Below, piece after piece: positions 7,292 through 64,000 of a DNA stretch of 64,000 nt (the stretch's first letter is position 1; each line of letters starts with the position of its first letter). This DNA is from Desmodesmus armatus. Lineage: Eukaryota > Chlorophyta > Chlorophyceae > Sphaeropleales > Scenedesmaceae. Below the pieces are notes generated by a model. It was given only the letters and a program-made list of their open reading frames with translations, made no database searches and was not told the DNA's origin. Location: assembly GCA_007449985.2 (NCBI GenBank), contig VIIQ02000027.1:69501-133500 (forward strand). Reading direction: 5' to 3'. The translations under genes were made by a program, and so were the position numbers.

Positions 7292-10200
7292 TCAACTGCT
7301 GGACCAAGATCCTCTGCACACCACCGCTGCCTTCCTAACAGCCCTGCTGTCATCATCCAGCGCCACCATCACCGCTGCCAGCACCTGCCGCCGGTGTGGG
7401 TGCAGCAGGTGATACGGCAGGCTCATGCAGCTCGTCAGGCACATCACACCAACTTCTCTCACACCCGCTGCCAACTGCACCACCCTCCGCCTCAGCTGCT
7501 GCTGCTGCCAGCTTACTGCCGCCGCTGCGCCGCGCGCAGGGGTCAGCACAGCACACCCACACAACGTCTGCAGGAGAACCTCAGCATGCGCACCAAACTC
7601 TTCAGCACCAGCCTGACCACCAGAGGACAGAGCGTCCCCAAGCATCAGCAGAGAGCAGCGCAAAAGGTCCAGCAGCCGAGCCTGCTGCTCTCCCACCTGC
7701 CCACCACCCTCACAAGTCCTGCCGTTAAGCCCTCCTGCACTCTCCTCCCCCTCATTTAGACTCCCACAGCTGCCATCCACCCCTGAGATCGCATCCCAAG
7801 CTCTCAGCAAGTGCACCACACTCTGCATCAGCAGCACGTGATGCTCTCCTGCAGCCGAAAACGACCCTGGAGCTGCACTTATCAGGCTGGCGATCGCAAG
7901 CCACACACCCTCCCGCTGCTGCTCCGGCTGCGCCTGCAGCTGCTGCTGGGGTGCGGCTGCGGCTGCCTGCAGTGCTTGCAGTGCCAGCACAAACGTCTTC
8001 TGCTGCCAGAGGGGCCGACCCATGCAGTGAAGGCTCAGCCGGTGTCCTAGGCTTGAAGCATCAACCAAATCCCCACTGCTGCCGCTGCTGCCGCTGCTGG
8101 TGCCGCTGCTGGTGCCGCTGCTGGTGCCGCTGCCGCTGCTGCTGCTGCTGCTGCTGGCAGCAGCACCCTGAGGTGGACCGGCTGCAGACACCAGCACAGA
8201 AAAGAAGTCTGCGGCAGCCCAGTCCATAGCAGACAGTGCTGCCGCTGGTGCTGCTCCCTGCTGCTGCTGCTGTGTAGGGGTACCTTGAACCCCGACCTCC
8301 AACCCAGCCCGGTCATTCATCATCAGTACTGGCAGCACCCACTGCTGCATGATGTTCTGCCAGCCATCATGCCTTTGCAGGGCTAGCCCCCTAGCTGTCC
8401 AACCCAACGCCCTCACAGCAGCAGCACCAGCGGCCGCGAGTGAGCCTTCTTGCACCAACTGCTGCTGCTGCTGCCGCTGTTGCAAGGTCAGAAGAGGCTG
8501 TGTGAGCACAGGAAGAACAGCCGCTAAAAGCTCCTGCCCCTGTACTGCACCCCCGCCAGCTGCTGCAGCAGCAGCTACAGCGGCAGTACCCTCACCCCTC
8601 TGCCGCTGCAGCTGCTTATGCAGCCCCAGGCTCTTATTCAGCACACCACCCACTGCTACAGCTGCTGCTGTGCTGTCTATCCAACTGCTGCTGCTGCTGA
8701 TTGCAATGCTGGACATAGCTTGCACCAGGTCCAAGGTACTAGGAGCGGTAAGTAACCCTGGCCGGCCTCCTGACAGAATCGACAGTGCAATGCACACAGG
8801 GCCAGCAACAGGCAGCTGTGCATCAACATCCATTCCTGCAGCATCTGTCCCTACTGCTGCTGCTTGCGTGATCCATGCACACACCGGCAGCAGCAGCCGG
8901 CGTTGGTCGTCCAAGCTACAGCGTGCCGTCAGCTGCCCAAGCAGCAGACAGCTCTGCAGAATTGCATCTGCTGCAACCGACACCTCACTGCTGCTGTCGC
9001 TACTGCTGCCTGGCAGCAGCAGTGACACCACCAACTGCTGCTGCTGCTGCTGCTGCTGCTGCCAAGCCTCGAGGAGGTCACCGCAGAAGGCAGCGGCTTC
9101 GGCTGAGTGGGGGAGGCTGAGGTTTTGCGGCAGGGCTGGCAGGCAGCTGTTGTTGAGGATAGGTAGGACTGTGCTCAGCTCAGCCTGCAGTTACATTGGG
9201 AGGAGAGACAAGGCAGTCGGTGCATGTAAAGTAGCTGAGCTTGCACACATGAGGATGTGTTGTTGGTGTCAGACTAGTAGATGTGTGCAAATGTTGTGAA
9301 TGCTTCACTCCTGTGAGATCAGCACCCATCCTGGTGTAGTACCGCACAGTATACAGTAGTACACAACAGCACTGTGCAGTACAGTGCGGTACAGAACAAA
9401 GCAGTACGGTGCAGAGTTGGGCATGGGATGTCACAGACTAAGTGCGGCACGCACAATACAGTGCAGTAGATACGGTTGGTGGCCAGGCCCAGCACTCACC
9501 GAAGCCGCTTGCTGCACAATGCAGTGCAGTAAATGCAGTGCAGTACAACCTAACGCAGTACAGCCTGATGCAGTACAGCCAGCCCCAGCACTCACCCAAG
9601 CCGTTTGGTGCACAATGCAGCACAGTCAATTGCAGTGCAGTGCAGCGTGATGCAGTACAGCCAGTCCCAGCACTGACCCAAGCCACTTGCTGCACAATGC
9701 AGTACAATTAGATGCAGTGCAGTACAGCCTGATGCAGTACAGCCAGCCTCAGCACTTACCCAAGCAGCTTGCCGCACATGCAGCACCACCTGCTGCTTCA
9801 GCCACTGCAACACCTGCCAGGCTGCTGCTGGACCACTGCCTGCCAGCAGCCCCAACAGACCCACGGCCCGTGACCTCAGCAAGGCACTGTCACCTTCAGC
9901 AGCAGCAGCAGCAGCAGGAGCAGCAGCAGCGGGAGCAGCAGCAGCAGCGTCGCTGGCCCTACCTTGCAGCAGCTGCAGCAGCTGGTCTGCACAGCTGCTA
10001 AGCGCAAGCATACTCGGTAACGCGCTGGCATCTGCTGCTGCTGCCGCTGCTGCTGCTGCTGCTGCTGTGTCTTCGGCCCCTGCTGGCGGTGGCCAGGCAG
10101 CAAGCTTCACCAAAGCTGCCGCTGCTGCCCCTTGCTCCGATACACTGCTGCCAGGTGCCAACTCCAACCCAGTGTCACCACTGCTGCCGTGTAGAGCCAG

Positions 10201-11570: not shown

Positions 11571-11606
<36 letters not shown>

Positions 11607-14318
11607 AGAATGATGCAGACAGGCATAGATGCTTGGTGTGTGTGTGGGGAATGTGTATGCATGTCTGTCCGTCTCCAGCCAGCCAGCCAGCCAGCCAGCT
11701 AGCCTTGTTGCCCAGTGTGCACCCACCGCTTGCAGGTGTGGCTTGACTGCTGCTGGGCCCCAGCTGCGCAGACACACCGGCAGGGCCACTAGGGAGTCAT
11801 CCTTGGCCTGCCTGCAGCAACAAACCAAGCAGTGAGTGAGCGAGCTAGTGAGTCAGCAAGTCAGTGAGTCAGCAAGTCAGTGAGTGAGGGAGTGAGTCAG
11901 CAGACCGGCAGGGCCACCAGGGAGTCATCCTTGGCCTGCCTGCAGCAACACACAAAAGTACAACATCATGTTGCTGTGACAGCCGACATGCTCAAGTATA
12001 TGCAGTACACCATACCAATGGGTGTGTCCGAGATGCACACATACAGCCATTCAGCCGCTACCTGGGTTTGCAAAACTAGGGGCTTGCTAAATTCACCATC
12101 CACCTATCCAGCGAGCCAGCCAATACATTGGTGATACAGATCATCCGCGCCCGCCCCCACTCCCGCTAACCCCCCCCCCTCCAGGGCCATTCACCTGAGG
12201 CTTGACCCCAGCTTTTCACTGAGCACAGGGATAGCCAGGGGTGCAAAGTCAGGGCAGCAGGCCATTGCCGCCAACACCCGCTGCAGCAGCATGTCCCTGG
12301 TGATGCGGTTGCTGTCATTCTTGGGGGCTGTGAAGATCACCGGGAAGTAGGGGGCCACACAGGCATCAAATAGATCCTCGTTGTTGTCTTGAAGGTGGCT
12401 GGCTGAGGAGGCAAGACTGGGATGGTGGTACAACTTGCCAACAGCCTGCATGGTGTGTGTGTTGAATATGCGGTGTGACCATATATTACAGGACCGAAGG
12501 GGGTCATACATGAGCACTAAGTGTGCGTGTGTGTGTGTGTGTGTTGGGGGAGGGGCAGGGGGAGATGGCGGTCAAGCACAACAAACAAGACTAGGTTGGT
12601 GGTGAAACTTGCCGACGGCCTGCATTGTGAGTGTGTGCAGGGGGGGGGGGTCGGGGGAGGATGGCAGCCGGCGAAGCGCAACACATGCAACATGTTGCTG
12701 CATTACCACCGGGCTGGTGCTGTGAGAGACCTGACACCTGATGCATTGATGTGAGGGGGGAGTGCCGTGTTGCACAGGCACACGCACCTCCACACATTGC
12801 AGTGCCACCAGCAGGCACCTCGGGTCCGCTTCGTTCTCCATGGCCACCACTGTGAAGTAGGCTAGGTCTGTGCCCGCCAACACACTCGGCGCAGCAAAGG
12901 GACCCTGCCAGAGGACACCAATCAAGGCAACACAACAAGGGAATGATACAGAGACAGAACAAAGGCCTAGGTACCAGACGGCGAGGGGCCCTCACGTTAC
13001 CATACAGTTCTACTTGCAGGCTGGATGTCAACCCTCTGTATGTCAATATGCCAGTAGCAGCAGCAGCAGCAGCAGCAGCAGCTCACCTTGAGCAGCTCCA
13101 GCAGCAGTTCATAGCAGGCCAGTCGTCCCTTGTAGTCCAGGCCCTGAACGTGAACCTTCACCAGCTGGGACACTAGCTTCACTGAATCGGGCTCAGGCAG
13201 GGGGGCCAGGCTGGGCTGCCGGTGCCGCTGCAGCAGCGCCAAGCAGCCGGGGACAGCCACTCCGAGGCAGCGCCTGCGATCAGGACCAGCAACAGCAGGG
13301 ACGCAGGGACACGTTGGTTGTCCACTGTTATGTGGCAAGACGCTTACTATACCTCAACAAACAGGCGGCCTCACCCCTGAAAAGCCGATGTATACCCTTC
13401 AAAGGCTGCCTACAGGCGCACGCCCCAAAACCCAAAACCCCAGGCAGTGAATTAATGTGCAACTGTTGTAGGGAGCGAAAGCACCTTGTGGCGTAGCAAT
13501 TAAAATTAAATGCACGAGGTGATTGCCGTGTCACGCTGCTGCTCACCAGTCTGACAGTTTGCCTGCCAGGAAGTCAGCCAGCACACCCACATCCCCAGGT
13601 CGCAGGGCTTCAGGGGCCTCTGCAGCCAGCTGCACAGCAGTAGTGAAGCAGTACAGATGTTATCAACACCAACCAAGTGCAGCATAACAAAGAACAGCCA
13701 GTCCATCACAACCACAGCCAGTTGCAGAGACCCTGCATGTACTCAATGCATGTATCATAAAGCGCGCAGGAGGAGATTTCAGCTGCATCAGCAGCTGCTT
13801 GCAATTTTTGAGTCCAAAGCACGAGGGAATCTCGCAACGTTTGTCGTCATTGCTGGCCAATGAGTAAGACCCTTGCTGGCACCGTATTGTTGGAGAGCAT
13901 GAGCATGCCTCACCTGAGACAGCAGCTGCACAGCTCTGGCACGGCCCTCATGATCGACATCATCTGTCAAGGGGCGCTGCAGCAGTGCTACCTGGAGACG
14001 AGCAGAGGTGACGGAGGGTGTGGGAGGGCCAGGCACACTTGGCCATCCATGCCAGGCTGGCAACCCCCACCATCTGACTGGCAAACAACTGCACACCACT
14101 GCTTTGCACAAGCCCTCTGCACTTGACAACAGGCAGGTTTGAGCTTGAAATGTACAAAGTTTGCAGCAGCAGCAGCTTCTTCTCACCAGCTTCAAGACAC
14201 TGAGCGATCCTTGTCGCAGAGCTGACAGCACAGCAGCAGTAGCACTGCCCGCCTCATCTGACTGGCCTGCTATCACTTGATGCACACTATGATTTATGCC
14301 ATCTTCATGTATGTCCAT
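7292..14318 (-). CDS. MMS19: MMS19 nucleotide excision repair / cytosolic Fe-S assembly protein
   Basis: HEAT-repeat scaffold that in other eukaryotes hands Fe-S clusters from the CIA complex to nuclear DNA-repair and replication enzymes. Exons: 14187-14318, 13914-13991, 13547-13629, 13087-13273, 12788-12904, 12195-12445, 11727-11811, 11074-11451, 9760-10757, 7292-9184. Phases agree at every junction. Family landmarks are an N-terminal helix pair (GRARAVQLLSQ), the block EDLFDACVAPYFPVIFTAP followed by the NRITRDMLL region, CLRSWGPAAVKPHLQ, and the terminal HEAT YHLLHPHRRQVL...ALDDDSRAVRKAAV. Poly-Gln and poly-Ala inserts lengthen it to about 1390 residues, against roughly 1030-1160 usually. 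Exon 9 changes frame at 10317-10339; removing those 23 bases, which begin GTAAGC and end CAG, restores the frame, but an indel is equally possible. The start at 14318 is the first ATG of the only suitable frame. Confidence 0.88.
9472..9770 (-). repeat. Echo array of the MMS19 exon 9 end and donor
   Basis: The true end of exon 9 with its GTAAGT donor lies at 9754-9760. Degenerate copies of this edge lie in the following intron near 9663-9690, 9583-9612 and 9487-9515, about 80-97 bp apart. Two copies keep GTGAGT and one reads GTCAGT. The spacers are rich in the pentamer-like string GCAGTACA. Confidence 0.85.
11837..11955 (-). repeat. Minisatellite plus echo of the MMS19 exon 7 start
   Basis: About 50 bp at 11902-11950 repeat, nearly exactly, the start of exon 7 and its acceptor (11771-11820). 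Between the two lies a short minisatellite made of GTGAGTCAGCAA-like units at 11833-11895. The echo is intronic if the inner acceptor is used. Confidence 0.85.
12583..12640 (-). repeat. Echo of the MMS19 exon 6 start
   Basis: This intronic stretch repeats the acceptor and first ~35 coding bases of exon 6 (true copy 12405-12450). Read on the minus strand it would give AVGKFHHQPSL against the true AVGKLYHHPSL, then it stops. It is a decayed partial exon copy. Confidence 0.8.
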
Positions 14319-15074: not shown

Positions 15075-21085
<6,011 letters not shown>

Positions 21086-21589: not shown

Positions 21590-24500
21590 ATGTCTACACC
21601 AGGAGGAAAAGGTCGAGACCTGTTCGACAATCAGGAGTCGCAGCTACGCTATGAGGCATACTCAAGGCTACAAGCAGCAGCTGTGGCTTTCGGTGACTCT
21701 TGCACCTTACCAATCCCAGAGATCGTGGCGATAGGAGGACAGTCGGATGGCAAGAGCTCTCTTATGGAGGCGTTCCTTGGCGTGAGTGACATATCTAGCA
21801 AGAGTCATGACAAGCATGCTGGTGGGGTGCTTGTGCAGGACGCTGCTGTGTCGACCGATGAAGCTGCTGTGTCGACAGCCCAGCACCATTTGGATCCTTG
21901 TTGCACCTGCAGTTCCGCTTCAACGTGCGTGAGGTGGAGATGGGCACAAGGCGTCCTCTGATAGTGCAGATGGTGCACGACCCCTCTGCACCAGAGCCAC
22001 GCTGCAGGCTGCAGGATGAGGACAGCGAGGAGTATGGGCCTCCCATCATGCCGGAGACAGCAGTGGCAGACGCAATCATGAAGCGCACCAAGGAGCACCT
22101 GCGGCAAAGGGGCAACGCAGCGGTGTCAAGCAAGCCCATCGTCATGCGTGCTGAGTAAGTGTGCAGCAGCATCCACAGCCTGTCACTACTGCTGGCGTGC
22201 CTCATGCGAATTCAACGCGCGTGCCGCTTCAGCAGTGTAGTGCAGTGCGCACCAGCTGTGACTTGTGCATGTTGTTTGCAGGTACGCGTACTGCCCCAAC
22301 CTGACCCTCATCGACACCCCTGGCTTCATCCTCAAGGTAACAGGACAGGGCTTGGCAGGTCTGATCAGGCACCTCCAGAAGTGAATGGTGCGGCAATACT
22401 TGTCAAACATGCACAGGCTGCACTTCATCCTTCAGCAGCTGTGCAACTGTGTAAAAACCCCTTATGTTCCTGCAGGCACGCAATGGGGAGGCAGACAGTA
22501 CGCCGGATGAGATCCTGCAGATGGTGAAGCAGCTGGCAGCACCACCTCACAGGTACTGTACTGAGTACGCCGCGAGCACTGCGAGCACCACTGTCACACC
22601 ACGCCCTGTCAGGGGTTGCCAGGAGGCAGGGCAGGTGTTTCCGCGCTCATGCTGCAGCCACCCCATTGCTGCATGCAAGCTACCTCCTGTCCTACACAAC
22701 GACTGCCATGCTGCTGTCTGTCCTGCAGGCTCATTCTGTTCCTGCAGCAGTCGTCTGTGGAGTGGGCCAGCTCACTTTGGATCAATGTGGTGCAGGAGTT
22801 GGACCCACAGTACCAGCGCACGGCAAGTGTCATGCTGTATGTGACAGCACCTGTAGAACCCACGCAGGAGGCCGGGCAGCCAAAGTAGCTGTTGTCTCAG
22901 GCATTCCTGGGGGGGGGGGGATTCATTACCCGGCACATGTTGAGCGTCAGAAAAGTGCACAAAAGCCGCCTTCCGATCTGCTGCTGAGTTGCTTTCCATG
23001 GACTTTGCCCACTGCCACTGGCACTGCTGCTACAGGTGATTGTTGCCAGCAAGTTTGACAACAGGCTGAAGGAGTTCTCAGAGCGCTGGGAGGTGGACAA
23101 GTACCTGAGTGCCACAGGGTACCTGCCAGCCAACGTGAAGCCTTTCTTCATTGCACTGCCCAAGGTGAGCATGGCGCCACACAGTACTTGTCTGTCCACA
23201 AGAGTGTTCTGCCTCACTGTGCACCTACAAATGCCACATGACAATGAGCAGAGTAGGCGGGGCCAGCGTGCAGCCAACATACCCATGAGCTGCCCGTGTC
23301 ATGCTGTGCAAAGAGAAGGACTGAAAGAAGAAGCAGAAGAGGATCACAGATCGGCCAGCAATTGAACTGTGTCGCAAGCCTGCTAAATCAGCAGCAGCTC
23401 TTTGTTATGCCCGGTGATGTCTGCAGGAGCGCAACATCCAAACCAGCGCAGAGTGGCGGCAGCAGATGGGTCAGGTGGATGTGTCCATCCTGCAGCACAT
23501 GCGCGACAACATCAAGGGGGGCTTTGACGAGGAGAGGCATGCACCACGCGTGGGCTTTGGCAACCTGAAGAGGTGGGTAGGTCGGGCTGTTGCGTGCAGT
23601 TTGGCAGCCTATGGTTCACCTCAACCATATTGCTGGCGCGCTGCAATTGATTACCTCCCACTCGCAGCTGTCAGTCTGCTGTTGACTTGGCCACTGCGGC
23701 AGCTATGTTCGTGTCTGGGGCAGCGATTGCAGGCTTGCTGGTTCATGCCACAACACACAGAGAGAAACAGCAGCTGGCAGTGAAAACCCAAACGTACCTG
23801 TGCCCTGGTGTCCTGCCTCGCCAGGTTCCTGGAGGACGAGCTTGCCAGGCGCTACCGTGATGCCGCACCTGGAACACTGGCGTTGCTGCAGGTGGGCTGG
23901 TGATAGCTGGTACCTGCTGCACCCATCGCAGCTCTCGGGACACTGCCAGGCCCCTGCTGGGGATGGCATACTACACAGCGTCAATGTCAATACCAACCAC
24001 CGTTGTGTGCTTTCAATGAGCTTCAACAGACGCAGACAACCTGCACCTGCTCAGCACAGGTGTCCAAGTGTCGGCATGCATGTGATGGTCGTGTGTGACA
24101 TGCTGGGACTGCAGGAGCGCTGCGAGGTTTTGGCGAAGGAGCTGCTGGCGGTGGACGGCAGGCTGCAGGCGTGCATGGATGTCGCAGCTCTCCGCAAAGC
24201 AGGTATGTGGCTTGGCATGGCATTGGCACAGTCCTGTGTGAAGCTGCATACAGCTTTCCTTGTGTTTGCTGCGACACCCGTCGCTGCATCAAACACTGTT
24301 GCCACACAGTAGCGGCTGCTTGTATTGCCCACACCGACTTTTATTAGCAGTATTGCCTATGTATGCCACGCATGCGGGTCTCATTGTCCATGTTGAACTC
24401 ACGTGCATGCAGGCATGCAGCACGCTGCTGCCACAGGGAAGATGCTTGAGGAGATCCTGGCCGGCTGCACCAACCCTGACCCAGCACAGCACGGCATGAC

Positions 24501-27500
24501 AACAGAGGAGGAGCGCACAGCGTCCAACGTGCAGGTAGCAAGGACTCTGCTGGATGCCTGAGCTTCCGCAGGGTCGACTTGTGTGTACCCCTGCTTGAGC
24601 TGTTGCTGTGTTGAAAGTGCAGCATGGTTGCCTGTACTGGCCACCTACCTCAACGGTGGTGCCAGCATCTCGTGTGTCATCGTTGTGATCTGTAGGTGGC
24701 TCAGGACCCTGTCCCTGTGCTATGATGTGCTGTGCTGTGCTCTGTTCCTGCAGTGGCCTGGCTGCCTGGATGCGGTGAAGCCGCCCAATGCCGGCCTCAA
24801 GCTGTTTGGAGGTGCAGCCTTTGAGCGCTGCCTGAATGAGTTCCAGGTGGCCGCCAACACGCTGGCCTTCCCCTCATGTGAGTGATGAACTCTGAGTGCA
24901 TAGGAAAGCGGGCCAGTTGGCTGTCCCTCAAACAGGCAGACTCATGTTATGCTACGCAACCATGTTTGGTGCTTGCTGCTGCTCATCATGACTGTCTGCA
25001 AATCTTTGCACTGTCATGCAGACTGGGCCCCCGGGTACTGACTGAGCGTGTGCTGTGTGCTGGTGCACCGTTGTTTTCTCGCCTGTGCTCATTGCAGCTG
25101 CAGTGGCTCGTGACCGCGTGGCAAACGTCCTGTTGGCATACAAGGTGCGCACACGGCCAGCAGCCTGCAGCCTCAGCTGGTGCTGTCACAACCCTAGGTA
25201 CAGCAACAAGCAAGCCACCGTGCTGCATGCCTGTGAGGCTATTCAGCCATGGGGTGCTGACACCCAGCACAACAGACAGCACAAGTCAACAGCAACCTGT
25301 CACTGCAGGGCCAGCACAACAGACAGCACATATTAGCAGGAACCTGATGTTGCGTTCACCCTAGTTGTCTTGCTGGGCTGCAGGGCAAGAACCACCTGGG
25401 GGGTGCGGCTCGTGCAGCTGAGGACATCGCCCGTCAGACAGCCAGGGAGCTGCTGGGGCCCCTGCTAGACGCAGCATGCAGCAGGCTGGCCTTCATTCTG
25501 CGGCGCGCACTGGACATTGCAGCTGACAAGTGCCTCAAGCATGGTGGGTTTGTCTAGGCGCTGTGCTGCTCCTGGCGATGTGGGTTGGGTGGATGGACAC
25601 AGCTGCTATGGCCTTGCCTTGGCAGCGGCTTCCCACCTGCACCGCCATTCTGTGTCTGACCAGGTGCCCGGGAGAAAGGACAATGGTATGCACACAACAT
25701 CCAGCTGGGTGCTAGCTAGCACTGTAGATGCCATATGGTGTTAGTGGTGGTTGTCCGGCAAGCATGTCGGTGACCCTTTGGTGAAGGCGAGGCTGTCTTT
25801 TCCCTGCCTACAATGGTCTGTTGCATGCTGGTGTGCGTGTGGTTGCTGAAGGCCCTGCCAAGGAGGCGCTGCAGCCCTATGTGGCTTTTCATGCAGCCCT
25901 GCGCTCCGCCCACATGGCCTTTGTCTCCCGCCTGGAGACCCAGGCCCGCACCCTGCTGCGCCACCACCTGGACACAGCCACCAGCGAGTTTGCACTCAGC
26001 CTGCTCATGTCCACGGTGTCGCTGGAGCCAGCAGCAGCATACCAGCAGCAGCCAGCGGGAATGCTGCCGCCTGGCAGCAGGAGGGCAGCGGCGGCGGCAG
26101 CAGTAGATGAGGGCGAGAACGTGCCCCCGCAGGACGATGGCAGCGATGAGGGACAGCAGGTGCGAAGGCTGAGCCACGGCTTAGCAGGGTTTTGATCATG
26201 CATGGCAGCACACTGGTGTGTGTGTGTGGGGGGGGGGGCAGGGGTTGCTGCAGCTGTTTCATGGCATCCCTGGGTGCCTATGTGGTGGCAAGTTTCAACA
26301 CTCAATGGCTGGGAGTGGAGTGCGTGGGCTGACTCAGCGCTGCGCCGCTCGCTCGTCTGCTGTTGCGCAGCTGTCACTGGCGCACAGGACGCCCTACAGG
26401 CCCATCCAGATGACAGTGCCTGAGACGCCATCACCAGAGGTGCTGATGCAGCAGCAGGCAGTGGTGGGCACCAGCAGGCGTGGGGGGCCCGGCCGCCATG
26501 TGTCGGACACCACCCCCAGCAAGGGCAGGATGGCCAAGGCGCAGCGCGTGGATGACGGAGGCATGGGAGGTGAGGCGGGGATAGTGATCGGCATCCCACC
26601 CACATACAACACACACAGAACTGCTGCTAGACACTACACAGGACCCTCTGTGTCCGCAGCTGTAAGGGTTGAGGACTTGCAGATTGCCACGCCGGCCGCA
26701 CTGACCCCAGCAGCATTAGCGTGGGACGATCACTGAACTGCCCAGGATTGACCAAGGCCAAAACATGAAGACTGTTGCTGGTTTTGCTGCAGGCGGTGTG
26801 CTGTATGACGGCCGCGGCACCTTCAATGACGTCATTGGCTACGCAGAGAGGCTGTTTGGCCGCATCAGGCAGACGGTGCGTCGGCATTTTGGGCAGCAGG
26901 CAACAGTTGCGTATGTGCAGCTGTCCTGTACCAGTGTCTTCATGCCGAGCTGGCTATTGCCAACTGCTGGCTGTTTGGTAGTCGGCATTACACCAATGCT
27001 CGGCCGCCTGGCAGTATGCCGCATTAGCTGCAGCGCTGCTCAGATGATTGTTTGTCTTGAACCCTGCGCTGCTGGGGTGCGCAGGTGGCTGGCCAGGCTG
27101 CACCCGCCACACTCAAGTCTGCCTTCCTGGACCCGGTGTCTGACAGCATGTCCACAGACGTGGCGCTGCAGCTCTTTGCCAAGGCAGACGCAGAGTTCAT
27201 GCAGATGTTTGCAGGTACGAGGCATGCGTTGCTCAGAGCAATGGGGCCGGGACGACTGTCCAACAGATGAGATGCAGTCGCCTGATGGGGCACATCAGGC
27301 CAACGGTGCATGACGCTAAACTGCACATTTCATCGATCCCCCCCCCCACACACACACAGTACCCCACCCCCCTCATGTACAATATGTTCCTTGTTGGGGT
27401 GGTAGTTGACTCGTCCACACTATTACTCTCCCTGCCGCTGTCTTGGTGGCTGTTTGCAGCTGCTGGTGCGCTGGCCGCGCTGCAAAGCAAGCGTGACAGC

Positions 27501-27569
27501 CTGCACAGGCGTTGCGAGGGGCTGCTGAAGTGCAAGAACGAGTTTGCAGAGCTGGCTCGGGCCTTGTGA
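21590..27569 (+). CDS. DRP5B: Dynamin-related GTPase of the DRP5/ARC5 (plastid division) class
   Basis: Large GTPase that in plants constricts the outer plastid envelope (DRP5B/ARC5) or acts at the cell plate (DRP5A). Exons: 21590-21781, 21913-22154, 22282-22336, 22476-22552, 22729-22822, 23036-23164, 23427-23572, 23825-23891, 24115-24202, 24413-24534, 24754-24877, 25098-25144, 25384-25543, 25852-26159, 26371-26569, 26793-26875, 27085-27214, 27460-27569; 790 residues. Motifs: P-loop GGQSDGKSS, TRRP switch, DTPG in LTLIDTPGF, ASKFD for the guanine base. The order of later blocks (NAGLKLFGGAAFERCLNEF, KNEFAELARAL end) follows ARC5 closely and the length is similar. A possible extra exon at 26661-26736 resembles ARC5 but would end in a stop, so it is left out. 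The intron after 22822 starts GCAAGT. Start: the first ATG upstream of the GTPase block. Confidence 0.86.
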
Positions 27570-27677
27570 CACCCAGGACCATCGGGGCCGCCCTACAGGA
27601 GTGTGGTGACTTTGGTGTAGAAGCATGTCTGCTGCAGTGCCGACTGGCATGCTGGGTTGCGTGACCTGAGCGACACC

Positions 27678-27682
27678 TGTAA
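27678..27682 (+). terminator. TGTAA polyadenylation signal of the dynamin gene
   Basis: TGTAA lies about 110 bp after the stop codon at 27569, a typical spacing for green algae. Confidence 0.6.
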
Positions 27683-27993
27683 CGTACATGTTGAGAGAGC
27701 TTTGCCACTTGATCCTGTGATGCTGATGTAGAAGTGATGCACAGCCTGATCTCAAGTGTCAAAAAACACTTCCACCCAACTTGCACCCTACCCGGTCTAT
27801 GGCTGGCTCCAGATTGGAGTTACATAACACATTAGCAAATGGACAGCTTAGAGAGCCAGAAGCTGCCAAACCTGCACCGCGCGGTTTAGGTTCCTGAACA
27901 TTTGCTCACCAGAAGCAAAGTCTGGCCAGTCCGTTGCAGGAGCCCTCTTTCCCTTGCAAGCCGTTTGAAGTCTGCCCGCTTCAGACGCGCAGA
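27683..27993. other. Intergenic: promoter side of RPS27
   Basis: Short stretch between the dynamin gene and RPS27 on the same strand. It must hold the RPS27 promoter and 5' UTR; no further element is recognisable. Confidence 0.5.
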
Positions 27994-30676
27994 ATGGTGA
28001 GAGCCGACGCCTGGCTGGACGTTTTGCAGGGTGGCTGCTGTTCTTGGCCCCTCGCGCAGCACACAGACCGTGTCACTGTTCAGCTAGCCAGATATGCGTC
28101 GGCGCTGCTACTGGATCAAATATCGCCAAACAGTTGCTGGCGCCCGTGGTGGTGCCGCATGGAGCATTGATGGCTCCACAGCAGCAGCAGCTGTTGGCAT
28201 GCTGGACAGCGGCGTGGGCAGTAGAACTCTGGCAGCATATGTGACAGTACCTGGCAGCTGATCAGAGCTGTGTTGCTGCTGCAGGTGCTCCACAGTGATA
28301 TTGATCTGCTCAACCCTCCAGCTGAGCTGGAGAGGACCAAGCACAAGCTCAAGAGGCTGGTGCAGTCACCCAACAGCTTTTTCATGGATGTGAAGTGCAC
28401 AGGATGCTTCAGCATGTGAGTGGACGTACAGCACACAACACTTAAGGGGTGCTGCCTGCAGGCAGCACTGGCTGGCAGCGGAGGTTCTGGGGTGTGTGGC
28501 TTCTTGTTTGCGAGGTTTATGCTGGCCAGAAACTCAGCCAGCAGAGCAGTTGTCATTCGTTGTACCGGCTGCCCTGGCTACGACTAAATATCTGTTGTGC
28601 TTGTGTCCCCTTGCTGCTTCCTGCAGCACCACCGTGTTCAGCCATAGTCAGGTAAGCCGTGCGTCGTCAGCAACAGGAGCAGTGTTTCTCAGTCACAGTC
28701 GGCTTTGCAGCAGCCAGTGCAAGAACAGTCGCACAGCATGTCCAGCATATGGAGCAGTCACAGGCCATGCTGCTGGTGGCGCTGGCAACAGGAGCACTGT
28801 CGGCATGCATGGGCAGTTGGTTGAGGCAGCAGGAGCGGCTGTGGCAGCAGCAGCACCAGCCATGCAGCGGGTACCACTGCACTTGCGTCAGTTTTGCATG
28901 GGATATGCAGAGCATGCACAGCAGAGCACGATGCAGAGTGCTGATCAAGTGTGTGTTCCGTGCTCCTGCAGACGGTGGTGCTTTGCGGCAGCTGCTCAAC
29001 AGTCCTGTGCACACCCACAGGTGGCCGGGCACGCCTGACAGAGGGTGAGTGTGGGGCGGTGCTCTGAGGTAGACGGCTCCTGATGAGCAGCGCATGGCAC
29101 TTTTGTTGCGCCGCATGTGTGTGCTGGCAGCGATGCAACGGCGGGCGATGGCGGTAGTTGCATGTTGGTGGGCAGCACACCCTCAGTGCGTCTGGATGCC
29201 CCCCATGCCAGCTGGTTGGGGGGTACTGCTGAGGCGTGCATCAATCAAACCCAGCAGGTCGAAGTGCTGTGCATCATTTGTGATGATCTCACACCTTTGA
29301 CTTGCTGGGTATCACTGAAGCAACGCCGATAGCTGTACAAGCGTTGCGCCAGAGGTGTCAATAAGCAGCGTGTTTGGTCCTCCAGTAGCGCACAGTCACA
29401 ACCAAGCTGTAGACGGCTCCAATGAGCAGTGCCTGGCATGATTTTTGCGACGCATGTGCGCGCAGGCAGCGATGCAGGGGGGGGGGTAGTTGCATGTTAG
29501 CGGGTAGCACACCTTCTGTGCTTCTGGATGCCCCCCCACGCCAGCTGTGGGCCCTGCCGTCAAAGTGTGCATCAGTAGAGCTCAGCAGGTCCGAGTCATC
29601 AGATCCACGTGGATCTCGACTTCTCTGACTTGTTGGGTTTTACAGAAGCATGCTGGCAGCAGTGCAAGCATTGTGCCAGATGGTTCAATGGGCAGCGCAA
29701 GTTGGTGATTATTTCTTGCTCCTGTGGCGCACAGTCGCACCCAAGCTGTAGTAGAATGAACTCCAGAACAAAAGTGCAGTGTAGTTGGCCTTAACCAGAG
29801 TTGCGCAGAACAGGGCAGGGCACGCTGCATGTTGATAGCAGCGACAGCGCCAGCTGGCTTGCATCCATGTAGAGGTCAGCACACCCTGCTTATGGGGGAG
29901 GGGTGTAGGTTGTTACAAGTGGTTACTTTCACCGCTGGGCGGTACTTTCCACAATTGATGAACTCGGAATTCAATGACAATGCCAATTTGACGGCATGTG
30001 AGGGGTGCTAGTCAGCACACTCTGTGCACCTAGTTGCCCCTGATTGATGCTGTCGTGTCTGTTGTGCATGCGCGGCATGGCTTTGGAAGACCGTGCATAG
30101 CATATGCAAGGAGTGCAAGCGCTTTTGCCAGTAGCAGCAGAGCAGTGCATGTGTTGGTGCGCACTTGTTGCAGCAGGATGCAAGCAATATGGGCAGTAGC
30201 AGCAGAGCAGTGAAGCTGGTGGCACGTACTGGTAGGCAGCATCGTGTCATCTCATTTCTGGCACGATCAGCAGCGTTGGTCGAGCTGGCTTGCTTGCCCC
30301 CCCCCCCCCCCCGGAAAACACCCACACATATGTACCTTTGTCCTCCTCCCCATGCTACCCATGTTTCGTCCAGTACAGTCTGGACAGTATAGTGCTGCTG
30401 TCGTGCCTGTACTGGACTGGAACATGGGCAAAAAGGGGGAAGGCTTTCAGCAAGTGCGGCTGTTTGCTGGTGCCTATTAGCACTGGGTGGGCTTATTGGC
30501 ACGGGGTGGACAAGACATGGCCTGAGCCATGCCAAGCAGCATGAGGGTTAGCCTAGATGCTTCGACTCCTCCCCAAACTTGTCACAATGTCAATGTGTTG
30601 ACTTGCCCTCACTGGTGCGGCCACTGCCATGCTTTCCTGTCTCGCAGGCTGCTCTTTCCGCAGGAAGGGCGACTAA
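27994..30676 (+). CDS. RPS27: 40S ribosomal protein eS27
   Basis: Zinc-binding protein of the small cytosolic ribosomal subunit. Five exons: 27994-27996, 28285-28415, 28627-28651, 28972-29044, 30648-30676, which join in phase to exactly 86 residues, the usual eS27 length. Recognisable blocks are [20 protein letters not shown], the zinc ligands in VKCTGC and CGSC, VFSHSQTVV, and the end CSFRRKGD. Two features are odd: the first coding exon consists of the ATG alone, followed at once by GTGAGA, and exon 3 is only 25 bases. The last intron (29045-30647) is about 18 times longer than all of the preceding coding exon and carries a tandem duplication. Identity is certain; the ATG-only exon rests on phase and on the family's conserved MVL start. 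Confidence 0.96.
29067..29750 (+). repeat. Tandem duplication of ~340 bp in RPS27 intron 4
   Basis: A unit starting GTAGACGGCTCC at 29070 begins again at 29409, and a decayed third start is seen near 29748. Shared blocks include the ATGCCCCCC and GCATCA segments and a CGCACAGTC block before each restart. The copies are diverged by point changes and small indels. Confidence 0.75.
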
Positions 30677-33895: not shown

Positions 33896-33938
<43 letters not shown>

Positions 33939-42900: not shown

Positions 42901-45265
42901 TTGACCACCTTGTGAGCGCTATGTTACACACATGCGTTATTTTTCATGTTACATATATGTCACATAACATCTTCGTAACGTGTCATGTTTCCTGCAGGCC
43001 GCATGCTGGTGAGGCTGGTGACATTGACCACCTCGTGAGTGCGCTGATGTTGTGTGAGAACATTGCGCACGGCATCAACCTGCGCAAGAGCCCTTGCCTG
43101 CAGTACCTCTTCTACATGGCACAGATTGGACTGTGCATGAGGTGAGGGGCTGGCGGCTTTTGGGGGAAATAGTGCACTTGGGGGCTGGCGGGGGTTGGGG
43201 GAGGGACGGAGAGAGAGGTGGAGAGAGGGGGTGGGGGGGGGGGGGTGTTAGTGGACTTTCCTCTGCTGGGAGTGGTGATTTTGGCACAAGTGCTGTAAGT
43301 AAACTTTCATCCTTTGCTGGATGTGGTGTCAATAGCGCAACTGCCTGAGAGTCCTCCGATATGGTCACAGTGCCAGCCGGCAGTACCTCTTCTATATGGC
43401 ACAGATCGACCTGTGCATGAGGTGAGGGGGAGTTGGGCAGGCGGTCGACTGGGGAAAGGGGGAGATGGGCAGTCAGTTAGCGGGGCAGGGGGGGGCTGGT
43501 GGGAAGGAGTAGAGAGGGACTGGCAGGGGTTGGAAGCATCAGCGGACCGGCACGGTTGCCATACTGGGTCTTTGGTGCGCGACGGGCTGTTTGGGAGCTC
43601 GCCCGTCGCTGTGGTCTGCTTGCGATTGTCCTTGGCAGTGCACCGCCTGTTTACGGAACAGCCTGTTGCTGTACCGCTACTGTGAACGCTTGACATTCTC
43701 CCTTCCCCTCCTGGCAGGATTCAGCCTCAAGCATCCCCTTCACTGAGCACTGCATGCAGACCACTGTTCTGTCCCTGCCGTGTGTTCCTGTCCGCACAGC
43801 CCGCTGTCCAACAACAGCCTGTTCCTTGACTACCACAAGAACCCCCCCCCCCCCCCAACATACACACACCAACACACCAACACTGCTTATTCAATGCTGT
43901 TTGTGTGCAGCCCGCTGTCCAACAACAGCCTGTTCCTTGACTACCACAAGAACCCCTTCCCCGCCTTCTTTGCGCGCGGTCTGAGTGTAAGCCTGTCAAC
44001 AGACGACCCCCTGCAGATACACCTCACCAAGGAGCCACTGGTGGAGGAGTACAGCGTGGCAGCACAGGTGGGGGGGGGGATGCAGTACGCAACGGTTGGA
44101 GTGTTGTGTGTGTTTGCAACCCATGAGTTACATCCATCAAGTGCTGCTGGTGCACCCTGTGGACATAGTTGTGTTGGCGTGTACCTGAGTGGGAGCATCT
44201 GCAGCGCACAGGAAGGGGTGTGTGGGGGGGGGGTGCCGGTGTATGTTGGTTTTGATAGGGCTGTGTGCCCCTCAAAAATGGAAGCTGAGCAGCCCACTAA
44301 TGCATCATGCATTCACATACTAGAGGGCTATACACCCACCCATTTACTTACTGCAATGTATTGCTGCGTACTGCACGACTCCCTCAGGTGTGGAAGCTGA
44401 GCAGTACAGATCTGTGTGAAATCGCGCGCAGTGGTGTGCTGCACAGCGGCTTCCCCCACGCCTGCAAGAAGCACTGGGTGGGGTCAGACTACTGGCGGCC
44501 GGGGCCTGAGGGCAACGACATACACAAGACCAACGTGCCCAGCCTACGCATGCGCTTCAGGTGGGTGTGGGGGGGGGGGGGGAACTGGAGCCCGGGGGGG
44601 GGGGGGCAGGCCTTGCAAACGCCCGAGGAGGCAGGGTACGTGTGGTTGTGTATGGCGCACCCTTCCACAACTTTCTTTTACCGCTGAGATGATCTGGAGG
44701 GGGTGGGGTCAGACTACTGGCGGCCGGGCCCTGAGGGCAACGACATTCACAAGACAAACGTGCCCAGCCTGCGCATGCGCTTCAGGTGGGCGTGGATGGA
44801 GCGAAGGAGGGACCGGGGGGGGGGGTGAATGACTTGACAGGCAGTGTTTGTGGTTGCGGATGGTTTGAATCTTTGCAGTGATCAAGGCGTGGGGAAGGAT
44901 CTTACTGACCTGACGGCCAGGGCTTCAAGGGCAACCACATCCACAAGATGAGCATCGCACACCTATGTGTTTCTTTGCCACGCAGTGGCACTCAGTGCTG
45001 ACTGTGGTATATGCTATGGCATCCTGTGCTGTGCTGTGGTTGCATGCACGCCACTCAGGAGACCAGGGTGTGGCTGCTGGTGGGCGTCTCATTGTAGCGC
45101 TCACTATTGACGCTACTGTATGCTGTGGCTTGCTGTGCCGTGCTGTGCTGTGCTGTGCTGTGCTGTGGTTGCAGGCACGACACGTATCAGGACGAGGTGC
45201 GGCTGCTGGCGGGTGGTGCAGTGGCGCATGCCACACGCAAGCAGCTGATGGGACCCCGTGACTGA
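31728..45265 (+). CDS. AMPD: AMP deaminase, plant type with N-terminal membrane anchor
   Basis: Zn-dependent hydrolase turning AMP into IMP plus ammonia. Twenty-two exons join in phase to 917 residues: 31728-31888, 31999-32101, 32391-32453, 32909-33142, 33414-33707, 34599-34682, 35227-35307, 36347-36477, 36708-36827, 37704-37812, 38291-38394, 38901-39011, 39580-39649, 40009-40125, 40373-40504, 40875-40958, 41210-41284, 42432-42547, 42998-43141, 43911-44067, 44388-44560, 45175-45265. Residues ~9-29 form a transmembrane segment, as in the plant enzyme. A variable Gln/Ala-rich region (exons 2-5) follows; its exon choice is the least certain part. The catalytic half is very conserved: [10 protein letters not shown] with metal-binding histidines, [48 protein letters not shown], and the family signature [11 protein letters not shown]. 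Most introns contain echoes of the adjoining exon edges. Confidence 0.95.
33640..34115 (+). repeat. Four-copy array of the AMPD exon 5 end plus donor
   Basis: The end of exon 5 (true copy 33640-33713, encoding [16 protein letters not shown] and then GTGGGT) recurs at about 33772-33840, 33905-33993 and 34047-34115, each time followed by a similar AT-rich intron stretch containing TTGTCA. The number of CAG units in front varies from 4 to 13. The last copy has GTCTGT in place of the donor. Confidence 0.92.
34783..34998 (+). repeat. Two echoes of the AMPD exon 6 end
   Basis: The coding stretch for [18 protein letters not shown] (true copy 34627-34682) recurs at 34785-34843 and 34937-34996. The first echo has lost the donor (ATGGGG), the second reads GTGCGG. 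Spacers are also repeated, so the unit is about 150-160 bp. Confidence 0.9.
36100..36275 (+). repeat. Two echoes of the AMPD exon 8 start
   Basis: Copies of the acceptor side and first ~45 bases of exon 8 (true copy starts 36347) lie at 36100-36146 and 36229-36275, each followed by CTGTACTGTACTG microsatellite DNA. The period is about 120 bp. Shorter GCTGAGCCTCA fragments at 35340-35555 look like older remnants. Confidence 0.88.
37028..37280 (+). repeat. Two echoes of the AMPD exon 9 end
   Basis: The last bases of exon 9 with donor (true copy 36806-36840, ending TGCCACCACAG then GTGTGT) recur at 37028-37070 and 37226-37280 in the same intron, with a repeat unit near 200 bp. Confidence 0.82.
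38786..38827 (+). repeat. Echo of the AMPD exon 12 start
   Basis: An acceptor plus 38 coding bases ([11 protein letters not shown]) identical to the start of exon 12 (38897-38936) lies about 112 bp upstream, then runs into a stop. It is one of the least diverged echoes. Confidence 0.93.
41985..42260 (+). repeat. Two echoes of the AMPD exon 18 start
   Basis: The start of exon 18 (true copy 42429-42470, encoding [12 protein letters not shown]) recurs with its AG acceptor at 41985-42022 and 42217-42260. Each is preceded by long C-rich tracts. Period about 210-230 bp. Confidence 0.93.
42861..43430 (+). repeat. Echoes of both edges of AMPD exon 19
   Basis: The exon 19 start with its acceptor (42986-43040) is duplicated at 42861-42915. 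The exon 19 end (43100-43147) is duplicated downstream at 43381-43430 with an intact GTGAGG donor. The exon therefore has a copy of its own edge on each side. Confidence 0.93.
43796..43845 (+). repeat. Echo of the AMPD exon 20 start
   Basis: Acceptor and first ~45 bases of exon 20 (true copy 43908-43955, encoding [15 protein letters not shown]) are present 112 bp upstream, continuing into a run of C. Confidence 0.93.
44697..44960 (+). repeat. Echoes of the AMPD exon 21 end
   Basis: The last ~85 coding bases of exon 21 plus GTGGGT (true copy 44476-44566) recur at 44699-44791 with few changes and a GTGGGC donor. A much decayed third copy is visible at about 44885-44960. Confidence 0.92.
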
Positions 45266-45410
45266 GCTGGCAGCAGCAGTTGGTGTTGTTGTCGCAGCAG
45301 CAGCAGCAGCAGCAGCAGCAACCCCATGACTGTCATGACTGAGCAGGCAGCAGCAGAGGCAGCAGTGACCTTGTGACTGAGCTGGCAGCAGCACCAGCAG
45401 GGACCCCTTG
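45034..45410 (+). repeat. Echoes around the last AMPD exon and stop codon
   Basis: The start of exon 22 (45172-45215) has a copy at 45034-45087. The region of the stop codon (45252-45280) is followed by three decayed copies near 45320-45350, 45365-45398 and 45398-45430, each with a CCCxTGACxGAGC-like core and CAG repeats. Confidence 0.75.
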
Positions 45411-46659: not shown

Positions 46660-47400
46660 CCTGAAGCAAAATCTGGCGTGCTGGCCACCAACTGCTGCAG
46701 CTGTCCCCTGCACACCTGCTGAGTCTGTCGTTGACAGACATGGCAGCTTCAGCCTCTGCGATCTTACTACAACACCTGCTGAGCAACACACATGTCCCAC
46801 AACATGACTCAACGCCAGCCAGCACACCCCTCAAGAGCCCAGATCTGGCACGCTGAACTCCAGCTGCCGCAGCTCCTGCTGCAACTCAAATCAGCAGCTT
46901 TGTGCCAACAAAACAAGGTGTATCAGCAAGATCATGCACCAGCCAGCGCAACCCTCACTCTGCAAGATCTGGCGTGCTGCCGTCCAGCTGCTGCAACTGT
47001 CTCAGCAGCTCCCTGCCAACACATAATGTGCATCAACAAGACCATGCACCAGCAGGCATGACCCTCAATCCACAAGATCCGGCGCGCTGCCCACCAGCTG
47101 CTGCAGCTCCTGCTGCAACTATCTCAGCAGCTCCGCTCTGCCGCCAAAACAAGCTGCATCAACAAGATCATGCACCAGCAGGCATGACCATCACCCTGCA
47201 AGATCTAGCGCGCTGCCTACCAGCTGCTGCACCTCTTGATTGCACTGCATGCTGCCCATTCACTCCTGCTGTTAACACGATGCTCATGGAACATCCCCAT
47301 GCACCAAAGCCCTCAAGCCCCTCAAGAACCCAGATCTGGCGCACTGCCCACCAGCTGCCGCAGCTCCTGCTGAAGCTGACTCAGCAGCTCCCTGCCGACA
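46660..47400 (-). repeat. Array of about six frataxin C-terminus echoes
   Basis: Segments resembling the last ~75 coding bases and stop of frataxin (true copy 47446-47523, encoding [15 protein letters not shown]) recur near 47318-47398, 47190-47240, 47066-47145, 46955-47020, 46832-46895 and 46665-46725. They lie beyond the stop codon, in the same orientation, about 110-165 bp apart, each separated by ATCATGCACCAGC-like spacers. Confidence 0.85.
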
Positions 47401-47445
47401 AACAAGGTGCACCTACATAATCATACACCAAAGCCCCCAAGCCCC

Positions 47446-48885
47446 TCAACAGCCCAGATCCGGCGCACTGCCCACCAGCTGCTGCAGCTCCTGCTGAAGC
47501 TGACTCAGCAGCTCCCTGCCATCCCTGTGGTACACCCAGCCGCCTTTATGGTAGTCATATCTGAAGGGACCCGACAGAGGGCTTGACAGCCAGATCTGTC
47601 GGTTGGGCGTCTGCTTGTTAATGACGTAAGTGCCATAACTGCCAAGCTTGACTGTCAGCACTCCTTGCTGGGGTGGCGGGAAGACAGCAGGTGCACAGCG
47701 GGGCAGAGTGTAACCTTGAGTGAGATCTGACTGTCAGACTGCACATGGCTAATGGATGATTTTGTCCACACAAAACAACAGCTTCAAAGTGAAACTGCCA
47801 GTGCCAGAATGCAATTAGCTGGTGACGAATAAACATAGTCAAGCGGGCAGGCAACACTACACCAGAGAGTGAGCAATGCCTGGCACTCTTGCCTTGATAA
47901 CTGCCAGTGTTTCAGTGAAAGCTGGAGCAACCGGATCAAGGTGAACTGCTGCCACTGCAGTACCAAAACTCACCGCATGCTCTACATCTGCACCATCTAT
48001 GTCTTGGTCCTCCACAAACACCTGGCAGGATCATATGGCAAGGGTGTGTCAGCATCAGGACAGACCCCCGTGGACATAACACAGGGGCGTGCAAGCAGTG
48101 AGGCCTGTTGGTGACCATCTTGCAGGCTTGGGCACAACCTGCTGCTGCTGCTGCTGCTGCAGTTGTTGCAGTTGTACTACACTGCTGCTGCTGCTGCTGC
48201 AGTTGTGGACAGCGTGCAATACCTTGTCCTGCATAGCAAGCAGCCTGGCACTTGCTGAGTTGTGCACAGGCCAGCCTTTGCTGAGGCATACCTCCAGCTT
48301 TTCCTGCAGGAGGTCCAACGTCTCGTCAGCTAGTCTGTGATACTCGTTTTCAGTCATCTCTGCTTGCCTGCAACAATGGGTTTGACAGGACAACATTGAT
48401 TTCTTGTATGTTAGTGGCTCCAGCAAGACTGCTCAAGACTACCCAGACCACTGACAGGCACACACGTGTCACCACTGCTCAGCAGAATCCTCCAGACAGC
48501 GTACTGTTCTGTAAGATGCAATTGCTGCTTAAAGGCGCCAACGTTTTGAGTTTGATCCAACCAGCGACACTCACACTACACGGAGGTCCTCCTCAGAGCA
48601 CCTCTGAGAGCTTGTGCTGAACAGCCTTGCTGCTGCCCACTGCTGATGAGGCCAAAGGCCTCCATGTGCGTGCTGCTGCCCTGCTGATAGCGTCCAGCTA
48701 CTGTATACGCGCGATTCCAGCTGTGATTGGGCTATTGGCGTGGCTGAAGCAGCAGCATGCAGGGCTGCAATGTAGAGTTGACTGGATAGGCTCTGTGGCC
48801 CTAGCTGAAGCTGGCCGCAAGTCTGGCTGTGCTGAAGGGCTCTGCTGCATGTCTGAGCAGCTAGAATCAACTGGCGCCTGCACAT
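47446..48885 (-). CDS. FXN: Frataxin, mitochondrial
   Basis: Small mitochondrial protein that stimulates Fe-S cluster assembly and handles iron. Exons 48575-48885, 48292-48367, 47974-48021 and 47446-47667 join in phase to 218 residues. The N-terminal third is Arg/Ala/Gln-rich without acidic clusters and contains RLFSTSSQ, as expected of a matrix-targeting peptide. The mature part begins [15 protein letters not shown], continues with an acidic helix ([15 protein letters not shown], the likely iron-binding ridge) and the diagnostic [27 protein letters not shown] and GWVYHRDG. The start at 48885 is the first ATG of the open frame. The gene's 3' flank carries repeated copies of its own C-terminal segment. 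A donor at 48286-48291 reads GTATGC. Confidence 0.93.
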
Positions 48886-50421: not shown

Positions 50422-50466
<45 letters not shown>

Positions 50467-56400: not shown

Positions 56401-58738
56401 ACGCGCTCATCTACACGGGATCGTCCTGCGGCGGACACAGTGGCGGGCCACTTTCTGCACCTGACAATGGCGTGCCTGGGTTTGGTATCCTGGTGTCCGG
56501 TCCGACCGATGATTGTTCCTTGTCTGGACAAACCTCTGGGTCGACCTACACTCAGATCGTTGACCAGAAGCAGAGGCATGGCGTATACGTTGAGGCCCTG
56601 ACATCCGCCTTGACTGCCGTGCAGACCCGTCGTGCTGTGCCCAACCAGACCCGCGCGCCAAAGCCTGCCAAGGGGCCAAATGCACAGCCAACACAGTAGG
56701 CCAAGGCTCCGAAGGTTCTGTCTCATTCATAGCCAGGTCATACCTCAGCTATCAGCTCTGAAATAGTATCATAATTTGTTATTTCCAAGTTTGCTGTTGT
56801 GTTGTTGTTGCGTGTTTGACGTAGGTATGCAGCTGGCTGCGTGATTGTGGGTGTTGTTCGACCCTTGCTGCTGCCAGCACCAGTGGTGGTTACACTACCC
56901 TGAATTTGACTAGAAGCTTGAAGTTGATGCTGAGCACCCACTGGGCCTGTGCTTGCATGGGTGCTGTATTGAGCTACATGGGTGCTGTATCAAAATGTAG
57001 TTGTGGTCTACAGGCTGTCTGCAAGCCTTCTTTGCTCCTTTTTTGACTGTCAGCAGCTGTAGGGCTGTTAATTCAGTGCTTTTTGCAGCACTTCTTGAAG
57101 GACATCTGCTCCATTGCATAGGCAGATGGTGCTCAGCCTTGTGTGTTTTTGCAGGCACAGGTTGATATACATTGACCCAATCCATCCACAACACCCCAAA
57201 GTGCCTTTCAGTATTGTTGTTGGTGTGTTGCTGAGGTTGTTGTTGGACAGTAATTGTTGTCGGCGCTGTCCTTGCTGTTGCTTGGCTGATCTTGGCGTGG
57301 CGGGTTGGTGCCAATGGGCGATGTTGATTCTAGTATTGGGGATGCAGCAGGGCAAGGCATGCTGCCAAGGCTTTGCGGCATGTACGGTGGGAGTGCAGAG
57401 GCATTGGAGGCAATCAAAGCCTGCAGTCACTTGCGGCAGTGTGAAGTTTGCAACGTCCAAGTTTGAAATCACGGCAGGACTAAAGAAAGAGATACAAAAA
57501 TCCCGGTACAGGACCAAACCCTAAACCTGAAGGATTTCACCCGAGGGGAACAGCTAGGGATGCAACACCTCGCAGGTGTGTGAGCCATGCATTGTGGAGA
57601 GAGGGTAGGAAGGGTTGTACATGGGATGCAGGCAGCTACACCACACCGTCATCCAGCGACTGATCCCACCCGCATGAGGTACAACTGCCAGCCTGTGCGT
57701 ACAATGAACACACAAAACATGAGACGCCTACAGCCACAGTTTGAAGAAAGCCAGCTCTTTCACCATCTCTTCACCCACTTGGTGAAGAGATGGTGAACGA
57801 GCTGGCTTACTTCTTGCCTGGTGGCACAAGGCAAAACACCCCAAAGAAACGAACCATACAGCTGCGGTGCTCAGCCCACCCTCTTCACCCACCTTGCAGC
57901 TACAGCCAAACCCTGAGGTTCAACCACCAGCAGCTCTCTGCCATGAGTCACCACCCACCACAACCCCTGCCAAGGGTCAGTACTAGGCGGTGCCCTGACC
58001 TCTGTACCGCAGTCCAGCTGCGAAACGGTACTGCCATCTGCGGTATACAGGCTGTACAGCATGTTGTTGCCTGCTGGTACTGCCAGCCGTGTTGCACATG
58101 GGCTGAGGCACATGCCCACATCTGCTCGGGAGGGCAGGGCAGCGGTCCAACAGTCAAGGCCTGCGGTACAGCGGGGGGGGGGGGAGGCGCAGGGGAAGGT
58201 GGGCTGTGTGGATGCTTGGTGCATTGACCAGTACACCAAAGTGTGCAACTACAGTACTGCATTGAAGCATGCCGTTGCCTGCCGTATTGCACATGGGCAG
58301 AGGCACATGCCCACAACCGCCCGGGAGGGCAGGGCAGCAGCCCAACACTCAAGGCCTGCATCAACAGGTTGCAGGCAAAACTACAGATTAGTCATTCACT
58401 GAGTGGCACTAGTGGTATGTGTTTGTGGCACAAATGGGGGGTGGGGGTGGGCGCTGAGGTGGTGAAAGCTGACACAACTGCCAGGAAAACAGCACTAAGG
58501 GCACTTGTTGTTATCATCTATGACTGCTGCTGCTGTCAGTGAGTCGTTCAGCCAAGGTGTGTGTTGCTGAGCTAAGAATACATACCTGTCAACACGTCCA
58601 CACACTTGACGATGCCACTGTGGCTGCAGGCAAATGCCAACACCCCAAACAGCTCGCCGGCAGCACCACACATACCCCACCCAGCCTCACTGTCAGGCCC
58701 TGCCTCTAAACCTGACCTCAAGTGCTGTCCTTGACCTC

Positions 58739-58770
<32 letters not shown>

Positions 58771-58887: not shown

Positions 58888-58919
<32 letters not shown>

Positions 58920-59635: not shown

Positions 59636-59672
<37 letters not shown>

Positions 59673-60406: not shown

Positions 60407-60437
<31 letters not shown>

Positions 60438-61331: not shown

Positions 61332-61377
<46 letters not shown>

Positions 61378-61728: not shown

Positions 61729-61774
<46 letters not shown>

Positions 61775-63891: not shown

Positions 63892-63945
<54 letters not shown>

Positions 63946-64000: not shown

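Follow-up and report, generated by a model that had tools for sequence, protein, structure and literature searches.

Short copies of exon edges, lying beside the exons from which they derive, are a real feature of this stretch of green-alga DNA. They are probably products of recurrent local tandem duplication, in units of about 100-280 bp that are placed irrespective of exon edges. The AMP deaminase (AMPD) gene, which is also what drew the attention of the original prediction, is an exception: here the excess of copies at exon edges persists after correction for decay.

The window, that is the whole stretch of 64,000 nucleotides analysed, corresponds to C24:69501-133500 in a genome of 115.8 Mb and 831 contigs. 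Counts that go beyond the window cover 264 kb in all, from two contigs (C24 1-163500 and C2 100001-200000). Gene models were obtained with a self-trained gene finder, which converged on a CAG/GTGAGT-like donor and a TGCAG/G-like acceptor (the slash marks the junction). The AMPD and DBP3 genes were also modelled by spliced alignment of homologous proteins, using 4 of 120 listed AMPD homologs and 5 of 120 listed DBP3 homologs, all from other species. DBP3 has 76% identity to a Scenedesmus protein and AMPD 70% to a Haematococcus protein, which points to a chlorophycean alga. All other exon boundaries have the gene finder as their sole support. By construction it prefers coding-like sequence, and it called exons in some of the copies. 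We took out 39 predicted exons closely matching a longer neighbour exon, genuine exon repeats possibly among them, which left 88 genes, 527 exons, and 439 introns.

Copies at exon edges

Two screens were used. In screen 1, 80 bp of the exon side of each boundary were compared with the boundary's own intron (ungapped score of at least 18, simple repeats masked), while screen 2 required that the copy span the exon junction. By screen 1, a same-strand copy was present in the adjoining intron for 18 of 439 donors and 19 of 439 acceptors across the 264 kb, about 4% of predicted edges. The same screen gave 0/1317 donors and 0/1317 acceptors when introns of other genes served as the control, and 0/439 donors and 1/439 acceptors on the opposite strand; the far end of the same exon matched the intron in 1/140 and 0/140 cases. 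With 37/878 edges on the same strand vs 1/878 inverted and 0/2634 in introns of other genes, the predicted existence, common orientation, and locality of the copies are well founded. By screen 2, junction-spanning copies occur at 35/878 edges in the 264 kb vs 0/1756 controls. Such copies carry intron base pairs as well (29, 23, and 100 bp, for instance). An origin from mRNA does not fit, since the copies run past the exon junction instead of stopping there. The distance from copy to exon is 104-280 bp in 28 of 37 pairs, within a full range of 34-746 bp.

In the window itself, 20 boundaries have a copy by screen 1 and 19 by screen 2; their union, counted by hand, is 23 of 206. The number predicted, more than 20 boundaries in five genes, is reached, but unevenly: 12 of the 23 lie in the AMPD region (32988-45300), and the AASDH and frataxin cases involve gene-finder exons only. 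As for the predicted six copies at one boundary, the maximum found was four (screen 2). By the same screen, the AMPD region has copies at 11/38 boundaries vs 24/840 for all others (p=4e-8). Screen 2 also gave 19/374 for the first 133.5 kb of C24 without the AMPD region vs 5/466 for the remaining C24 sample together with C2 (p=6e-4). The multi-exon gene at 21590-28087, near AMPD, had exon-edge copies at 0/36 boundaries by this screen; on reading its predicted protein we take it to be dynamin-like. Local repeat arrays number 6.6 per 10 kb in the window, 4.0 in the left flank, 0.3 in the right flank, and 2.2 in C2.

The four AMPD alignments agree on the junctions from exon 37704-37812 onward, the far 3′ end excepted, and fewer of them agree N-terminally. 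The gene finder matched the AMPD exons from 38291 on with one donor off (44564 for 44560), and called extra exons, several of which are copies. The gene and its copies, numbered by position in the window, are as follows.

34599-45262, plus strand: AMPD gene, exons 34599-34682 to 45175-45262 (spliced alignment of P0001, P0002, P0003, and P0017; match to PDB 2a3l)
33645-34113, plus strand: array made of an exon end (donor 33708) plus following intron, period about 128 bp, three further copies; exon by gene finder only
34626-35001, plus strand: exon end (donor after 34682), copies 34785-34876 and 34937-35001; tandem unit 152-159 bp
36096-36387, plus strand: exon start (exon begins 36347), upstream copies 36096-36142 and 36224-36269; tandem unit about 117 bp
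36813-37274, plus strand: exon end (donor after 36827), copy 37251-37274
37520-37716, plus strand: exon start (exon begins 37704), copy 37520-37562
38384-38536, plus strand: exon end (donor after 38394), copy 38508-38536
38774-38935, plus strand: exon start (exon begins 38901), copy 38774-38823; exon part 35/35 identical, intron side not above shuffles
41982-42470, plus strand: exon start (exon begins 42432), copies 42215-42257 and 41982-42021
42852-43042, plus strand: exon start (exon begins 42998), copy 42852-42919; intron half alignable
43096-43429, plus strand: exon end (donor after 43141), copy 43376-43429 with GT kept
43797-43965, plus strand: exon start (exon begins 43911), copy 43797-43854; intron side not above shuffles
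44476-44795, plus strand: exon end (donor after 44560), copy 44701-44795; within 85 exon bp, 4 sites differ, each of them synonymously

If the AG of copy 43797-43854 were used, it would lengthen the exon by 111 bp and leave the frame open.

Two other kinds of repeat lie in introns of the window. The dispersed element of about 116 bp in an AMPD intron (35375-35491) has 86-92% identity to eight other near-full-length genomic sites, with no obvious terminal inverted repeat at the ends used. TGTACTG-like low-complexity repeats are abundant in the introns at 36034-36200 and 9482-9786, and the stretch 36034-36200 matches many other genomic sites.

The remaining cases in the window are these.

18490-18678, minus strand: DBP3 exon start (exon 18314-18541), copy 18601-18678, period 111; homology-backed
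16131-16912, minus strand: DBP3 exon end (exon 16843-17010), copied twice in the next intron, one of the copies being 16131-16212; homology-backed
17120-17915, minus strand: DBP3 exon end (exon 17869-18118), copy 17120-17169 at a distance of 746, intron side not above shuffles; homology-backed
11769-11956, minus strand: MMS19 exon start, copy 11898-11956; gene-finder exon
12412-12636, minus strand: MMS19 exon start, copy 12586-12636; gene-finder exon
9482-9790, minus strand: MMS19 intron array; its units of 82-97 bp are similar to the donor end of the exon that starts at 9790; junction placed by eye, found by neither screen
46815-47520, minus strand: array of units of about 124 bp touching predicted exon edges near the frataxin candidate; gene-finder exons
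58054-58359, minus strand: predicted exon start, copy 58254-58359, period 195; gene-finder exon

The one frataxin candidate scanned scored 16.9 bits, under the Pfam cut-off of 21.3.

Exon edges compared with other compartments

Tandem arrays are spread over all compartments. With periods of 50-600, the 264 kb hold 17 intron-only, 39 edge-crossing, 13 exonic, and 6 intergenic arrays; the intergenic ones all lie outside the window. Relative to the length available as start positions, the densities are 0.27, 0.60, 0.34, and 0.17 per kb, respectively. The original prediction had named an equal frequency of tandem copies in intron interiors and intergenic DNA as evidence against it. The intron-only and intergenic densities are broadly alike, as far as 17 and 6 arrays can tell, and count in part against the prediction, while the edge-crossing density lies above both.

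How much of this difference requires a process specific to edges? Constraint on the true exon keeps the exon half of a pair recognisable for a longer time, and in a decay simulation with a similar detector edge-crossing units were detectable 1.26-1.30-fold longer. Uncorrected, the share of edge-crossing among edge-crossing and intron-only arrays gives p=0.021 in the window and p=0.058 outside it. With a factor of 1.3, the share outside the window is 20/28 (20 edge-crossing to 8 intron-only; expected 0.59, p=0.25), and edge-specific generation is unsupported outside AMPD. In the window the corrected share is 19/28 (expected 0.51, p=0.09), which divides into 10/14 in AMPD (expected 0.37, p=0.011; p=0.028 at a factor of 1.57) and 9/14 in the window without AMPD (expected 0.56, p=0.60). 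Over all 264 kb it is 39/56, with p=0.06-0.08 after correction. Intron windows beside splice sites, in introns of at least 250 bp, were copied in 12/196 and 8/196 cases, no less than exon edges. Since adjoining intron stretches are copied equally often and the decay-corrected share outside the window is as expected, a general edge-specific process is unnecessary, with AMPD as the exception, and the idea that the density of copies at exon edges, originally described as striking, is special in itself finds no support.

Probable tandem units and their decay

When compared without gaps, the copies appear shorter than the spacing between them. Once gaps are permitted, alignments extend over 0.8 of the period or more in 13 of the 21 pairs examined, with identities of 62-82%; those at 34626-35019, 36064-36387, and 42779-43051 are examples. 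For the junction-anchored intron half, 34 pairs were testable: in 23 it scored above every one of 20 shuffles, and in 11 it did not; three more pairs had no half to test. The tandem part of the predicted mechanism agrees with these 23 pairs. In the same 23 pairs the exon side has 150/1561 differences and the intron side 229/1546, a ratio of 1.54 that is biased toward the tandem reading by omission of the 11 failing pairs. A ratio of about 1.57 is expected if the exon accepts synonymous changes only (27% of substitutions) and all else drifts. The five testable AMPD pairs have 13/273 differences on the exon side vs 70/395 on the intron side, so that the AMPD copies are nearer their exons than the AMPD intron halves predict, a point against the tandem reading. 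Two recent units lie outside the window. One, of period 133, has an exact match of 133 bp, and the other, of period 539, is identical over 150 exon bp and has 7 differences among the intron bp compared.

The pairs that failed point to another possible origin, in which a break within an intron is repaired by taking up an exon edge from close by, inserted together with an unrelated spacer, as in vertebrate repair-mediated duplications. The 11 of 34 testable pairs whose intron half did not rise above shuffles are consistent with it. They include 4 of the 12 young pairs (those whose exon parts have diverged by no more than 5.5%), namely those at junctions 38901 and 43911 and two in the left flank. 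Proximal repair-mediated duplications are indeed known, with a median of 147 bp and some composed of exon plus intron, according to one study (PMC2671141). However, the intron half is present in the other 23 testable pairs, and copying that is blind to edges should also bring pieces from the far end of the exon into the intron, where the far-end control found 1/280. We consider this origin unlikely.

Under tandem duplication, a unit lying wholly within an exon would lengthen the protein, and probably only units with a length divisible by three would escape loss. A unit lying over one exon edge would spare the original exon and splice site, and the extra copy would be spliced out and drift. At the molecular level, the source may be replication slippage or the repair of nicks or breaks that lie close together. 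In exonic arrays, the period is divisible by three in 13/13 cases (chance 6e-7), a figure inflated by the inability of the gene finder to call a frame-broken exon. The periods of intron-only arrays have no bias (7/8/7 by remainder modulo three). Those of edge-crossing arrays lean weakly to multiples of three (18/37 pairs, p=0.055; 20/43 arrays, p=0.075; 15/28 pairs with a period of 100-300 bp, p=0.03).

Of the 270 pooled differences by which copies depart from their exons, 108 (0.40) are synonymous. The share expected is 0.43 for a constrained exon and a neutral copy (p=0.33) and 0.27 if both are unconstrained (p=8e-6). Together with the 13 in-frame exonic arrays, this fit to a neutral copy favours the original suggestion of short tandem duplications purged within exons and hidden at their edges. 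Many copies keep GT or AG, as had been noticed: the junction dinucleotide is retained in 28 of 37, namely 12/18 donor and 16/19 acceptor copies, about the numbers that neutral decay predicts (14.9 and 16.1). When the pairs are split by divergence, 34/53 differences are synonymous in the 19 pairs below 10% and 74/217 in the remaining 18, with the 10% cut chosen once the data had been seen. The closer pairs may reflect some constraint on both copies, and the distant ones some misplaced exons. Constraint on all copies was also considered; the pooled synonymous share does not support it, although in view of the split by divergence it is conceivable for the younger pairs.

Could some of the copies be in use, as alternative splice sites or mini-exons kept by selection, in the manner of the boundary-crossing intron gain in potato? 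The synonymous-rich pairs below 10%, even with their post hoc cut, the weak lean of periods to multiples of three, and copy 44701-44795, whose four differences from the exon are without exception synonymous, would agree with such use. The gene finder also called exons in copies, and the 39 exons taken out resembled longer neighbours, but such calls favour coding-like sequence by construction. Taken together, the differences are those expected of a neutral copy, and when the homology-backed pairs of AMPD and DBP3 are counted by themselves, 22/50 differences are synonymous. The splice site of the copy would be usable in an open frame in 7/28 cases vs 3.3% of 302 control sites, a comparison that is unfair and not relied on, since the copied exon half simply inherits its open frame whenever the period is divisible by three. 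Use of some copies appears quite improbable to us. More speculative still is a broader picture, in which the boundary-crossing duplications would provide a lasting reserve of additional splice sites and mini-exons. The younger copies would enter the mRNA to some extent, subject to a frame filter, and would give rise to shifts of exon edges and to potato-type new introns; AMPD would be an active hotspot.

An assembly artefact is conceivable for the nearly identical arrays outside the window, but is highly improbable as a general explanation: 34 of 37 pairs are 2-29% diverged in the exon part, and an assembler does not invent such differences. Introners or another dispersed transposable element, to which the 116 bp element of the AMPD intron could have pointed, have almost no probability as the source of the copies, because a comparison of 33000-36500 with the whole genome matched that element, a CAG-rich patch, and a TGTACTG-rich patch at about 36034-36200. 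In this search, which was non-exhaustive (40 of 142 candidates were scored and common words were skipped), there was no dispersed match to the exon part of the 34626-35001 array or to the 36347 exon.

Relation to known systems

The pattern is of a known kind, and tandem duplication as its preferred explanation has close parallels; the present case adds another example, from a green alga in which one gene is unusually dense in copies. An algal precedent for exon-edge copies was not among the literature matches listed, which is weak evidence of its absence. In potato, tandem duplication over an intron-exon boundary gave rise to a new intron (PMC4974935). As here, a second copy of the edge and of the splice signals came to lie beside the true one, but the potato duplication made a new intron, whereas the copies described here sit inside predicted introns. 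Among the vertebrate repair-mediated duplications (PMC2671141), four donor sequences were composed of partial exon and intron, and no constraint was detected on the two copied exons that were tested. These duplications resemble ours in being local, of similar size, and sometimes furnished with exons and splice sites. They differ in that donor and copy may be up to 5 kb apart, while here many copies lie head-to-tail in the same orientation. Small tandem duplications are also described as products of break repair (PMC8355091), with natural rice tandem duplications cited there from Vaughn and Bennetzen 2014; the likeness is that short insertions there commonly arise by head-to-tail duplication. 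Introners (PMC9860276), too, bear on intron content, green algae included, but they are dispersed elements, while the copies here match their own neighbouring exon.

The interplay of tandem duplication and splicing becomes countable in such material, where exonic units survive in frame and edge-crossing units as decaying shadows. Some caution in annotation is advisable, for a gene finder may call shadow copies as exons, as the 39 look-alikes taken out illustrate. If the younger copies are spliced, they would offer a natural series in which intron and exon-edge change could be followed.

Elsewhere in the genome, a second match resembling the RuBisCO large subunit, with internal stops (L030 and L031, C76:44538-44915), was found in addition to rbcL and is perhaps a nuclear copy of plastid DNA.
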